From Candidatus Thorarchaeota archaeon (GTDB lineage Archaea; Asgardarchaeota; Thorarchaeia; Thorarchaeales; Thorarchaeaceae), in the NCBI GenBank assembly GCA_018335335.1, contig JAGXKG010000009.1, forward strand, positions 1-52,119: DNA of 52,119 bases, written 5' to 3'. Both the position numbers and the translations under genes were made by a program. Numbering within the stretch: the first letter of the stretch is position 1; every line of letters begins with the position of its first letter. Below, in pieces: positions 3,277 through 8,066 of this stretch. A model generated the notes under the pieces. It searched no databases. It saw nothing but the letters and a program-made list of their open reading frames with translations, and was not told the origin of the DNA.

Positions 3277-6129
3277 CTAAATCCAGTCGCCAGTTTCAAT
3301 CTTTCTCGGCAGGTAGTCATCAGTAAGATAATTGAAGCCGTGACTTGCAAACGCCTGTATCTCAGCTTTCTCCTTCATCTTGAGCATGAGCTCCAAGTCA
3401 CGCACCCACTCCTTATTTTTCTGCACGAATGGCTCATCAAGCATCTGTTTGACCCGTCGTATGTCTGAGTCCTCCATGCGGATTCTTACAGCCTTAGGGA
3501 TATTATACTCCTCTAGGTCGCGACTCAGTACACCCAGAAGCTTGAGTTCGGGAGTAGCAATGAATGGTGACTCATAGCTCAGCCTCTTGCTACCGCGCAG
3601 GAATACAGAGTAGATGTAGTGTCCATATGGATCAGAGTCAACAAGCGCAAACGCTGGAATCTGCAATTCTCGTACCAGCATCTTGAGGAACGCTCTTGTT
3701 GCTATGTCACCAGTTCCCTTTCCAGTCAGAATGATACAGGGTTGACGCTCCCAGTATTTCGCTTCTGCCAATCGCATCATGGCGGCGTCTTTCTCTGATA
3801 GTATGATGAATTCAGCATCACTCTCAACGATTTCAACTTGGTCTAGGAACGGTGTGATAGACCATCCACCAGTACCCATCTTGGTTAGGTCGAGGCGGTC
3901 ACCACCATCACGCAACACTACCCGTCCCATAGCTGAACCTCTTGCTGAGGCCACAACATGGATACTGTCACGAGTAGTCTGAAGCATCGATGCTACATCT
4001 TCAATGATTTTATCGCTATACTTCTGATCTCTAAACAGATTAACGTCACTGTAGAAAACTTCTCGTTTCGTTGCGTGAAGATTATCACGTAGTAGTTCGT
4101 AGACGATTTCCATCACTCTGGCAGTTCGCGTTGCATCAAGAACCGATCCGAGTGAATGGTATGGTCGAGAAATCTTTCGAGTACCTAGAAGAAGCAAGTC
4201 CCGAACTTGATCCCAGACGATGTTATCCGCCGAACGGCTGGGAATCTCGAAAACTGGACGGCCCGTTGTCATGGCTTCGGCCAGTACTGTTCGAACCTCT
4301 TCAACCAACCTCTCACTGGTTTCTTCAGCGCTTAGAGCAACCACCTCCATGGTTTGTCGAGAGGCAGCCGTTTCCTGTTGCTCTTGCTCCTTGGCCTCTT
4401 CCATGAGTTCCTCGGTTTCCTTCCAAGACTCAACCATTTGAGCTCGAAGGTTTTCAATCGAGTCTGGGACATCAAGGCCAGAATCCTTCCTTTTGATAGA
4501 TTCTCGTGCCTTCTTCAGTTTCTTAACTGATGTACTGACAATCGGGATTCGAGGTCCAGAAACAACTTTCATCCCTTGTTCCTCTATAACCCCACCCCGG
4601 TCAACGACTTCCTTGGCGGTTTCTATGAGCTGTTCACCACCAGTTTTTCCGATTCCATTTACATCCTTTGCCAAATCAGAGGGGGACGCCGACACTATCT
4701 TTGCAATACTGTCGTAGCCTTTAGAAACGAGACTCTTCGCTGTTTTTGGACCGATACCATCAAGATCTGTCAGCTCAACATCGTCCAAATCAGCAGCTTC
4801 AGCCCGTTCAAAAGATACAGTCTTAGAGGCTAGCTGGATCACCTTGCTAGCGCCTTTCTTCCCTATGCCTTCCACTTCATTGGCCAGTTCATCAGGGTCG
4901 CATGCAGCAACTTCAGCTATAGAAGTATACCCAGCGTCTTTGAGAAGCTGTGCAGTTTTTTCGCCCACACCCTCTAGATCAATGAGGGCATAATCAGAGA
5001 CTACTTCCCGTGCTTGGCGTAACCTGAAAGCTTTCTGAGCAGAAGTGACTATTTTCTCAGCTCCCTTATCCCCCACACCAGTGACGAAGCGAGCGAGTGT
5101 GTTTGTATCTGCTGTTGCAATCTTTTCAAGACCAGCGTAGCCAGCCGCTTTTAGATTCTCTGCGGTTTTCTTTCCAACACCATCTAGCTGAACCAAATCA
5201 AAGGTTTCCTCGTCCTCTTCACTTCTTGGTTCCTTGGTCTTTGCAACCTGTTTGGCAGAGGCGACGATTTGTTCAGCACCTTTACCGCCCACCCCATCTA
5301 CTGACTTAGATAGTTTACTGGGTGAAGTGTCTGCGATTTTGAAAATGGTATCATAACCTGCCGATATCAGACTCTCTGCAGTTTTTCCTCCAACTCCATC
5401 AAGGGTTTTGAGTTCGTCTATCTTATCTCCGGCAGAGGGTTGCATTTTTCTCCAGAGCTTCTTTGCAGATTTTAGCATCTGGTCGGCTCCTTTCTTACCT
5501 ACACCAGGAACAGATGACAACTCGTCGGAATCTGCTTTTGCTATAGATTCTACTGTATCGTATCCTGCCTCGATAAGGTTCTCCGCAGTCTTACCACCTA
5601 CCCCATCAAGCTCTTTCAGTTCAGCTATCTTCTTAGTGGGTTTTGGCTTCATTTCACGCCATAATTTCTTTGCGGCGGCAAGAATCTGTTTCGCACCCTT
5701 CTTGCCAACACCAGAAACTGAGGAGAGTTCTTTTTCATCTGCATTAGCAATGACCTCTACAGAATCATATCCAGCGTATATGAGATTCTCTGCAGTTTTT
5801 CCGCCTACACCATCAAGTTTTGATAATTCTTTGATTTTTTCCGTGGGTTTTGGTTTAATCTCTTCCCAGAGCTTAGTTGCAGCTGCCAAAATCTGTTTAG
5901 CTCCTTTCTTTCCCACGCCATCAACAGAGGACAGCTCTTCTTCATTTGACTTTGCAACAGATTCTATGGAATCATATCCTGCATCCCTAAGATTCTCTGC
6001 AGTCTTCGCTCCAACACCATCCAAATCCTTGAGTGACACCGTTGAGTTCCTTCCGTTGTGTTTATTCGTTGTTTTATCATGTTCTAGTAGAGTTGATTGA
6101 CGTAGCTCGGTTCTACCTGCTGGTGTCAT
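3277..6129 (-). CDS. top6A: DNA topoisomerase VI subunit A with N-terminal array of helix-hairpin-helix domains
   Basis: Type IIB topoisomerase cleavage subunit, Spo11 family. At 950 residues it is more than twice the usual archaeal length of about 360-390. Residues about 33-512 hold seven tandem units of 60-70 residues. Each unit begins near LDGVGxKTAxxL and ends with a GVGxKGA-type element, that is, two helix-hairpin-helix motifs per unit. A charged linker follows (about 513-620). The C-terminal third is a full Top6A core: a winged-helix domain with the catalytic tyrosine Y693 in TKREVFY, and a Toprim domain with E779 (SEKDA) and D831/D833 (DSDPYG) for magnesium. The ORF is continuous, so this is a true fusion. 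It starts on an ATG that overlaps the stop codon of top6B by one base, so the two subunits are translated together. The array probably adds DNA-binding surface. Confidence 0.95.
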   Translation of the reverse strand: MTPAGRTELRQSTLLEHDKTTNKHNGRNSTVSLKDLDGVGAKTAENLRDAGYDSIESVAKSNEEELSSVDGVGKKGAKQILAAATKLWEEIKPKPTEKIKELSKLDGVGGKTAENLIYAGYDSVEVIANADEKELSSVSGVGKKGAKQILAAAKKLWREMKPKPTKKIAELKELDGVGGKTAENLIEAGYDTVESIAKADSDELSSVPGVGKKGADQMLKSAKKLWRKMQPSAGDKIDELKTLDGVGGKTAESLISAGYDTIFKIADTSPSKLSKSVDGVGGKGAEQIVASAKQVAKTKEPRSEEDEETFDLVQLDGVGKKTAENLKAAGYAGLEKIATADTNTLARFVTGVGDKGAEKIVTSAQKAFRLRQAREVVSDYALIDLEGVGEKTAQLLKDAGYTSIAEVAACDPDELANEVEGIGKKGASKVIQLASKTVSFERAEAADLDDVELTDLDGIGPKTAKSLVSKGYDSIAKIVSASPSDLAKDVNGIGKTGGEQLIETAKEVVDRGGVIEEQGMKVVSGPRIPIVSTSVKKLKKARESIKRKDSGLDVPDSIENLRAQMVESWKETEELMEEAKEQEQQETAASRQTMEVVALSAEETSERLVEEVRTVLAEAMTTGRPVFEIPSRSADNIVWDQVRDLLLLGTRKISRPYHSLGSVLDATRTARVMEIVYELLRDNLHATKREVFYSDVNLFRDQKYSDKIIEDVASMLQTTRDSIHVVASARGSAMGRVVLRDGGDRLDLTKMGTGGWSITPFLDQVEIVESDAEFIILSEKDAAMMRLAEAKYWERQPCIILTGKGTGDIATRAFLKMLVRELQIPAFALVDSDPYGHYIYSVFLRGSKRLSYESPFIATPELKLLGVLSRDLEEYNIPKAVRIRMEDSDIRRVKQMLDEPFVQKNKEWVRDLELMLKMKEKAEIQAFASHGFNYLTDDYLPRKIETGDWI
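4600..6033 (-). repeat. Seven tandem (HhH)2 coding repeats in top6A
   Basis: The first four units are nearly uniform, with the core LDGVGxKTAExL followed by an AGYD turn and a second hairpin GVGxKGA. Units 5-7 are more diverged and have longer linkers. Units 1-3 end in a Lys/Trp-rich helix (KLW) and units 1 and 2 share the linker KPKPT. This gradient suggests that recent duplications added the N-terminal units. Confidence 0.9.
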
Positions 6130-8066
6130 CAGTCACCACCTGTGGCAACATCAGCGACTAAATCGCTGCCCTTGCCATCTTCAGTTACATCGTCTTCTTC
6201 TTGTGGCTTATCGAAACCAGATATTGAATCTCGCATTCTCTGGGCTATTGATTCGGCATCGTAGACCTTCTTTCCCTCAGCGTCATTTACGATACTCACC
6301 AAACTGTCTGCAAACTGATCAGCGTACATGGCAAGCACACCTGCTCTCTTCGCCTTCCTCCTCGCCTTTTCCTTCTTGGACATGTAGCGCCTGAAAGATC
6401 TGCCGGCTTCTTCCAGTGCCAATTTTATCTCCTTAAGAAGAACCTCATCTTCAGCAAGTGCCTGTTTGCTTTGACCTTTGAACATCACGTGCACATATGC
6501 ACCACAAACATGAATGAATACCAGTAACGGGCCCTTGGGAAGGCCGTTGTCGAAGGTATCAAGCTTGTAATTCTTCCAGTTCACCATAGCAGTTGCTTTC
6601 CAAGTAGCACAGTCACTGTTATCACGCATTTTGGGCACACGATTGACGAATCGCTTCAGTACAACCGGGGAAGATGATGCGGGTTTTATGTCACCCCCAT
6701 AAGCTATGCAAACCTCGACCGAGAAGGAAAGACCCTTTCCGGAAGTCGGACTTCGCGTAACAGCCGTAATGAAATCAGGGTTGTAAGCCATCTGTACAGT
6801 CCGTTTGAAAACCTCTTCGCCAACAGGTACGACCGTATCCGTTGGGGGTGCATAGTAGTCTTCCGACGAAAATGACCTATAGAGAAGCTCAACCTGTAAT
6901 TTCGAGAGGGTAGAGGGATCTTGGCTAGAATCAATCAGCTTCATTTCGCGAGTTTTTAGAGCTTCATTCGTATTCGAAATGATATCTTTTGCCTTACTGT
7001 TACTCATTCTCACAAATGCTTGGGTCAGAAATGATTGAACAGTCCGGTGCTCTGTCTCTCTAAGAATATCTTGAAACTCTCCAATACGGATGCTAGCAGG
7101 ATGAGGTTTGGCATATTTCGGTTCATCCGGAAAGCTATTGACTCGACGGGGGTAAATATGGAGATCCCCATATGGATCAATGAAAACGATTGTGACGTGT
7201 GAATTCAACAGAGAAGCCATTTCTGCATACTCATCAGCATAACCCCGTCGATACTGTATATTCAGATAGTGTAATCTGATGTAAGTGCCCTGCTTGAATG
7301 GCAAATCCATCTTCTTGGGACCAGCCACGTAATCCTTCGTATTAGCTGTCGTAGTATAATAATCAGCAACCGTAGCTTTGTCAGCTTTGTGATGCTTTGA
7401 AATTGTAAAAATCGGTTTTCCAGTAGTATTCTGAGCATCGCTAAATGCTGAGGGAGCACCAAATCCCTGGCTACCACGGGTCTGTCTCAGTTTCTCGCTC
7501 TTGCTCGACGCAAGATAAATCCCGAATTTCTCAAGGTCTGATGGCACCATACCAATACCATTGTCGAAAATGGTGAATTCGTATACTTTGAAACCATCCT
7601 CATTATCAATAGGAATTAGATTAGGCATCTGAATCTCTTTCAGCTGCATAACAACCAACGGTTCTTGATTATCGATCAATTTCTTGAAAGGTGCAAGGAA
7701 CTCTTTGAAGTCCCGGACCCGTTTTTCCAAATCCTCCTTGGGATATGGAGGTATATGCACCTTCTTACCGGCCTGAACTTTCTTCTCCAAATGTTTGCTT
7801 TTTGAAATTGTATCAACAAGTTCAGGTTCCAAAGTCTCAGCTATCTCCTTGACAAGTTTAGGATCAAGCTGATCACTGAGCTCCGGCTTATTTTTCGTTC
7901 GCCACCACCAGCTTTCAATGGCATCGATGGAATTGTCAAGAAACTCAATAGCATACTGTATATGCTTATTGAGTCCTGTTTCGAACCCAACTAATTGGGT
8001 CCTTTTGCGCATGAACTTAGCTATAGTTCCTTGCTTGATATCGCCAGTCTCTTGGCCACTTGCCAT
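6129..8066 (-). CDS. top6B: DNA topoisomerase VI subunit B (GHKL ATPase)
   Basis: ATP-binding and transducer subunit that dimerises on ATP and drives strand passage by Top6A. The Bergerat fold is clear: N-box ELFDN-like EFLDNS (E41, N45), G1 box DNGIGM (168-173) and G2 loop GSQGFG (198-203). The transducer lysine is K534 in FKGQSKQA. A basic helix follows (RRYMSKKEKARRKAKR). The spacing from N-box to G1 box is about 120 residues, where typical Top6B proteins have about 30. The extra part (about 52-150) is lysine- and glutamate-rich with prolines. The start ATG is preceded on the minus strand by an AGGAGCG ribosome binding site. top6A follows with a 1-base overlap. Confidence 0.95.
   Translation of the reverse strand: MASGQETGDIKQGTIAKFMRKRTQLVGFETGLNKHIQYAIEFLDNSIDAIESWWWRTKNKPELSDQLDPKLVKEIAETLEPELVDTISKSKHLEKKVQAGKKVHIPPYPKEDLEKRVRDFKEFLAPFKKLIDNQEPLVVMQLKEIQMPNLIPIDNEDGFKVYEFTIFDNGIGMVPSDLEKFGIYLASSKSEKLRQTRGSQGFGAPSAFSDAQNTTGKPIFTISKHHKADKATVADYYTTTANTKDYVAGPKKMDLPFKQGTYIRLHYLNIQYRRGYADEYAEMASLLNSHVTIVFIDPYGDLHIYPRRVNSFPDEPKYAKPHPASIRIGEFQDILRETEHRTVQSFLTQAFVRMSNSKAKDIISNTNEALKTREMKLIDSSQDPSTLSKLQVELLYRSFSSEDYYAPPTDTVVPVGEEVFKRTVQMAYNPDFITAVTRSPTSGKGLSFSVEVCIAYGGDIKPASSSPVVLKRFVNRVPKMRDNSDCATWKATAMVNWKNYKLDTFDNGLPKGPLLVFIHVCGAYVHVMFKGQSKQALAEDEVLLKEIKLALEEAGRSFRRYMSKKEKARRKAKRAGVLAMYADQFADSLVSIVNDAEGKKVYDAESIAQRMRDSISGFDKPQEEDDVTEDGKGSDLVADVATGGD

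Follow-up and report, generated by a model that had tools for sequence, protein, structure and literature searches.

Thorarchaea possess a topoisomerase VI whose A subunit (Top6A) is joined at its N-terminus to a tandem array of double helix-hairpin-helix units, here termed (HhH)2, and by analogy this fusion is best read as a type IIB enzyme that carries a DNA tether in cis and has converged on the design of topoisomerase V. The fusion was analysed in a 52,119-nucleotide stretch of DNA from a Candidatus Thorarchaeota archaeon (the window), where seven units precede the catalytic core, and in its relatives among Asgard archaea.

The fusion gene and its Top6B partner

The top6A fusion gene occupies positions 3277..6129 of the window, the coordinates being those of the preliminary description, to which the minus strand has to be added, and encodes a protein of 950 amino acids. 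Pfam finds in this protein seven HHH_5 stretches (E 1e-94), and Pfam and the predicted fold place the (HhH)2 units, all on the minus strand like every feature of the window given below, at residues 33-90 (5860..6033), 102-159 (5653..5826), 171-228 (5446..5619), 240-297 (5239..5412), 312-369 (5023..5196), 382-439 (4813..4986) and 453-510 (4600..4773). The autocorrelation of the array reaches its maximum at 69 residues, with an identity of 0.34, a value that never exceeds 0.15 when the array is shuffled 1000 times. Upon single-sequence AlphaFold2 prediction of the array alone, each unit shows five helices with pLDDT mostly 70-89, and the GVG/GIG glycine hairpin is present at both positions in all seven units. 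A full-length structure prediction, based on a 7-row alignment, modelled the core poorly (pTM 0.24).

The junction between array and core is marked by the linker motif SGLDVP...W at residues 550-569 (4423..4482), kept in nearly all orthologs in the family form SGLPVPxxVxxLxxEMKxxW. The core then includes a TP6A_N winged-helix domain (residues 667-725, 3955..4131; 5e-20), with the catalytic Y693 encoded at 4051-4053, and a TOP6A-Spo11_Toprim domain (residues 774-944, 3298..3810; 3e-54), which contains E779, D831, D833 and E923. Together with R689, these residues complete the catalytic set, whose alignment equivalents in Methanosarcina mazei are R102, Y106, E202, D254, D256 and E342, with roles taken from PMC13040014. 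Seven tandem units before a complete Top6A core, as first read from the letters alone, are therefore borne out by Pfam, by the 69-residue period and by the presence of Y693, E779, D831 and D833.

The partner gene, top6B (6129..8066, 645 amino acids, with transducer and GHKL ATPase domains assigned by Pfam and NCBIfam), lies directly upstream and matches NF003218 Top6B (E 6e-105) and Topo-VIb_trans (E 4e-42). The Top6A ATG overlaps the Top6B stop codon (TGATG), and a similarly tight coupling is found in most relatives. Because of this overlap, translation must begin ahead of the array, so that the array lies inside the translated gene and a wrong start codon is ruled out. The winged helix with Y693, the Toprim acidic residues with the clasp glutamate, and the adjoining Top6B all identify the protein as topoisomerase VI subunit A, while the best PRK04342 model of NCBIfam scores 305.5 bits, below its equivalog cut-off of 465. 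Since the Pfam domains pass their own cut-offs, the shortfall counts against the named subfamilies and not against Top6A as such, the equivalog models being apparently lineage-specific. From its sequence, the gene product is predicted to serve as subunit A in the main Thorarchaeal topoisomerase VI, with an N-terminal extension and a putative ATP-dependent type II strand-passage activity. The window genome encodes three Top6A/B pairs, and the array is found in the 3277-6129 pair only; the two other Top6A paralogs were examined and have no array.

Conservation and spread of the fusion

The preliminary description had allowed for an assembly join between array and core. This is ruled out, as another species of the genus (L040), assembled independently, also carries these seven units in an array with 92% amino acid identity to that of the window, and related fusions are present in all 13 Thorarchaeal genera. 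Between these two species, dN/dS is 0.079 for the array, 0.025 for the linker and 0.009 for the core; the value of the array is thus about nine times that of the core and clearly points to purifying selection on the array.

A count of the genomes with the fusion, which the preliminary description had put forward as a check, gives at least two (HhH)2 units in 34 of the 34 Thorarchaeal genomes with a readable N-terminus, and 13 of 13 genera carry the fusion once partial N-termini are added. Two further loci (L049 and L065) lack visible units owing to a run of N and to a frame change at a contig edge; they are uninformative and stand outside the count of 34. Most genera have two units, g2 and g9 have four, g7 has five and g1, the window's genus, has seven, which by sequence comparison is an expansion in one genus of the usual two. 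None of the 20 Top6A orthologs examined from other Asgard families has a unit, their ORFs being at most 477 amino acids long among the matches listed, and the array was not seen in any Asgard family examined outside Thorarchaea. The idea that known archaeal Top6A proteins are devoid of such an array consequently holds for the solved chains and for the orthologs listed from other Asgard families, and fails for Thorarchaea. In the tree, the Thorarchaeal Top6A cores form one clade with support 100, so that the simplest reading is one gain in the Thorarchaeal ancestor, probably followed by the separate expansions suggested by the unit tree. The scan of viral contigs gave no relative, and the plasmid records gave three haloarchaeal Top6A matches. 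In the literature searched, whose scope leaves out most subscription papers, no description of the fusion was found.

Similarity to topoisomerase V and other topoisomerases

The nearest match of the array is represented by the tandem (HhH)2 domains of topoisomerase V, both in sequence (E 7e-9) and in predicted fold (Foldseek E 8e-8 and 2e-5), and the parallel proposed in the preliminary description is in this respect well chosen. The topoisomerase V of Methanopyrus kandleri (type IC) likewise joins a tandem (HhH)2 array to a topoisomerase, although it differs in having an unrelated type I catalytic domain and a C-terminal array of 12 units that include AP-lyase sites (PMC9489208), whereas the Thorarchaeal array is N-terminal, has two to seven units and shows no identified repair site. 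As the core of the fusion is a type IIB Top6A and no type IC catalytic domain is found, the protein is not a topoisomerase V.

In its core, the fusion resembles the archaeal Top6A proteins of Sulfolobus shibatae (2zbk), Methanocaldococcus jannaschii (1d3y) and M. mazei (2q2e), with which it shares the winged-helix and Toprim domains, the catalytic residues and the coupled Top6B gene, while their chains of 301-389 amino acids lack the array and the Thorarchaeal protein adds about 600 N-terminal residues. Other Asgard Top6A proteins belong to the same orthologous clade and share the TKRE-FYxDVxLFxxQ active-site context, again without the array and with the shorter ORFs noted above. HhH repeats are also present near the C-terminus of the NCBIfam family PRK14973, DNA topoisomerase I, where positions 774-932 match residues 4-155 of the fusion; going by the family name, we take it to be a type IA enzyme, which has the repeat domain alone in common with the fusion. 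Thus, topoisomerases with (HhH)2 units are already known as type IC and, by PRK14973, as type IA, while the core described here is of type IIB.

The preliminary description held the active site to look more like eukaryotic Spo11 than like most archaeal Top6A. The REVFY context is real and the comparison fair: the fusion has REVFYSDVNLF where yeast Spo11 has RDIFYSNVELF, and both lack an insertion that follows the catalytic tyrosine in the three archaeal Top6A proteins of solved structure. The context TKREVFYxDVxLFxxQ, for which yeast Spo11 has TVRDIFYSNVELFQRQ, is nonetheless found with and without the array in every one of the 20 aligned Top6A sequences of the Asgard main clade, and hence says nothing about the fusion. 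Eukaryotic Spo11 differs in having no array, and its partner is a degenerate B-like protein. In the tree, the fusion nests among Asgard Top6A, and the single yeast Spo11, on a branch of length 3.6 with support 79, is too divergent for a firm placement.

Charge and motifs of the N-terminal extension

In the other twelve genera, wherever the start can be read, the N-terminal extension is basic and mostly lysine-rich, with a net charge of +25 to +70; in the window's genus its net charge is -9. In particular, the window array is near-neutral, with a net charge of -10 over 479 residues (33-511) and of -4 to +3 in single units. The window's genus thus appears, by sequence, to have lost the charge of the extension and to bear extra units instead. 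That the array is neutral owing to a general acidic shift in this genus is not supported, the charges of the core and of Top6B being ordinary for the family. In parallel, the second hairpin is degenerate (GLS) in most two-unit proteins, and its glycine is kept in most units of the genera with four to seven.

Ahead of the array, residues 11-18 (QSTLLEHD, 6076..6099) form a PIP-box-like motif, for which ortholog comparison gives the family consensus [VI]-Q-x-T-L-G-[ED]-[LVI]-[VI]. Within its Q-x-T-L part, Q and L are invariant in 34 of 34 orthologs and T is replaced by S once in 34. In comparison with the PIP box Q-x-x-[LIM]-x-x-[FHY]-[FWY], the places of the aromatic residues are taken by aliphatic ones or by H/D, so that the motif can be called at most PIP-like without the aromatic pair. 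In Thorarchaeal FEN1, the canonical PIP boxes finish with Q-S-S-L-S-D-F-F or close variants. An XPG-family FEN1 paralog (L131, L162-L181) mostly carries a terminal half PIP box, Q-T-T-L-E-Q-W, which reads QTTLEEIC in the window's genus.

The array as a putative DNA tether

Topoisomerase VI bends one duplex, cuts it and lets a second duplex through the break in an ATP-dependent manner. In the mechanism proposed here, Top6A2B2 would cut the bent duplex with Y693 and pass the second one in its ATP-dependent cycle, while the (HhH)2 array of each A subunit would grip the flanking duplex by contacts between hairpins and the phosphate backbone. The enzyme would then stay on the same DNA molecule between strand passages instead of dissociating, and this retention could make it more processive or more tolerant of salt. 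Most Thorarchaea would divide this task between their two units and a flexible, lysine-rich segment, the place of which might be taken in the window's genus by neutral extra units.

Retention of flanking DNA by the array between strand passages is the reading we favour, with a probability of roughly 60%, as the arrays of topoisomerase V wrap DNA and are the best match to the array in sequence and fold. Indeed, the (HhH)2 domains of topoisomerase V wrap DNA, raise relaxation activity and give processivity when grafted onto other enzymes (PMC9489208), and by analogy the Thorarchaeal array possibly works like that tether. That the array binds DNA, keeps the enzyme there and brings a gain in processivity or salt tolerance is what we infer from this likeness. 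The glycine hairpins of all seven units, the presence of the extension in all 13 genera and the purifying selection on the array speak for this reading too. The basic extensions of the other genera fit the expectation for a DNA-holding tail, while the near-neutral charge of the window array means that its binding would rest on contacts between hairpins and backbone and not on charge. Points against the tether are that (HhH)2 units are also found on ribosomal protein eL32 and apparently on eS25 in the window genome, and that such units can mediate binding to proteins, as the N-lobe of RAD51 does.

In the foremost alternative, the array would be a docking scaffold that brings topoisomerase VI to chromatin, RadA or the replisome without holding DNA itself. 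One unit taken alone overlays the N-lobe of RAD51 (8xbw) with a TM score of 0.79 and 34% identity, and this lobe binds the histone H4 tail and nucleosomal DNA; the near-neutral window array and the PIP-box-like motif at the N-terminus agree with docking as well. We nevertheless hold it to be unlikely, as both hairpins retain the glycine pattern of DNA-binding HhH motifs, the extensions of other genera are strongly basic and the closest tandem array, that of topoisomerase V, binds DNA. Less probable than docking is a structure sensor that would steer the enzyme to junctions, crossovers or bent DNA, with an effect on substrate choice and not on processivity. The (HhH)2 domains of RuvA and XPF act as such sensors and are found among the weaker fold matches, and topoisomerase VI already prefers crossings and bends (PMC5922973). 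The best matches, however, are of the topoisomerase V and RadA/RAD51 types, and a unit number that varies from two to seven between genera is easier to reconcile with a graded tether than with a sensor of defined shape.

Least probable of all would be an expansion from two to seven units by repeat drift, with little functional effect, in which the units gained by the window's genus would be a largely neutral spacer. Unit duplications are lineage-specific, (HhH)2 units also occur on eL32 and on an eS25-like protein, and the higher dN/dS of the array relative to the core is in line with drift; yet the array value is still clearly purifying, every unit retains both hairpins, and at least two units are retained in all 13 genera.

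The tether may also be combined with the N-terminal motif in a clamp-coupled topoisomerase VI, a doubtful extension in which the PIP-like motif would dock on PCNA while the duplex is held by the array or by the basic tail. The enzyme would then act at the replication fork as a processive swivel or as a decatenase, in archaea most of which have no gyrase. If so, the missing factor proposed for the M. mazei enzyme would be supplied in cis, and in the window's genus a folded array that works independently of charge would have replaced the electrostatic tail.

Topoisomerase complement and significance

A GyrA/ParC-type topoisomerase was not found in 46 of 47 genomes of the Thorarchaeal family, in agreement with PMC9348778. 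The window genome has one gene as its sole topoisomerase IA match, and, given the absence of GyrA/ParC-type enzymes, topoisomerase VI must supply the type II activity. The lone GyrA/ParC-type gene among the 47 genomes is G038:C269 (L100), which may stem from transfer or from contamination. Lack of gyrase does not in itself require the array, since Hermod-, Odin- and Baldrarchaeota are also reported without gyrase (PMC9348778), and the array was seen in none of the Asgard families examined other than Thorarchaea.

The topoisomerases VI studied so far are slow and distributive on supercoils, and the mismatch with the needs of the cell has been noted; in particular, the M. mazei enzyme is strongly distributive, and a missing processivity factor has been suggested (PMC5922973, PMC8837201). 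A natural topoisomerase VI with a holding domain would address this puzzle in lineages that mostly lack gyrase, and a family-wide fusion makes the puzzle testable by deletion and grafting. The range from two to seven units, together with the exchange between lysine tail and folded units, would represent a natural series on the effect of a tether in a type II topoisomerase. The fusion is also a second origin of the design that joins a topoisomerase to tandem (HhH)2 units, a design for which no parallel among known topoisomerases had been described (PMC9489208).

Related proteins and paralogs

In the window genome, ribosomal protein eL32 (L103:1020-1961) carries a pair of (HhH)2 units, as does, by eye, an eS25-like protein (L102:985-1929), and the unit is thus promiscuous in this genome. 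A different N-terminal domain is present on the Top6A of Asgard family f13 (L097:1365-2753, minus strand), which has a ubiquitin/SUMO-like domain (Rad60-SLD 5e-7, ubiquitin 3e-6) and no array; extensions of similar length at L098:2618-4027 and L099:2953-4359 are alike by eye and have no Pfam match. For the third Thorarchaeal Top6A paralog (L003, L114-L117), each of the five sequences read shows DMS (VDMSPWS) where the DxD metal motif would stand, which suggests that cleavage is altered or lost. In several Thorarchaeal genera, FEN1 and the second Top6A/B pair are about 8 kb apart, as in G000 (contig C1, about 51.3-59.4 kb) and in G004, G005, G009 and G011.
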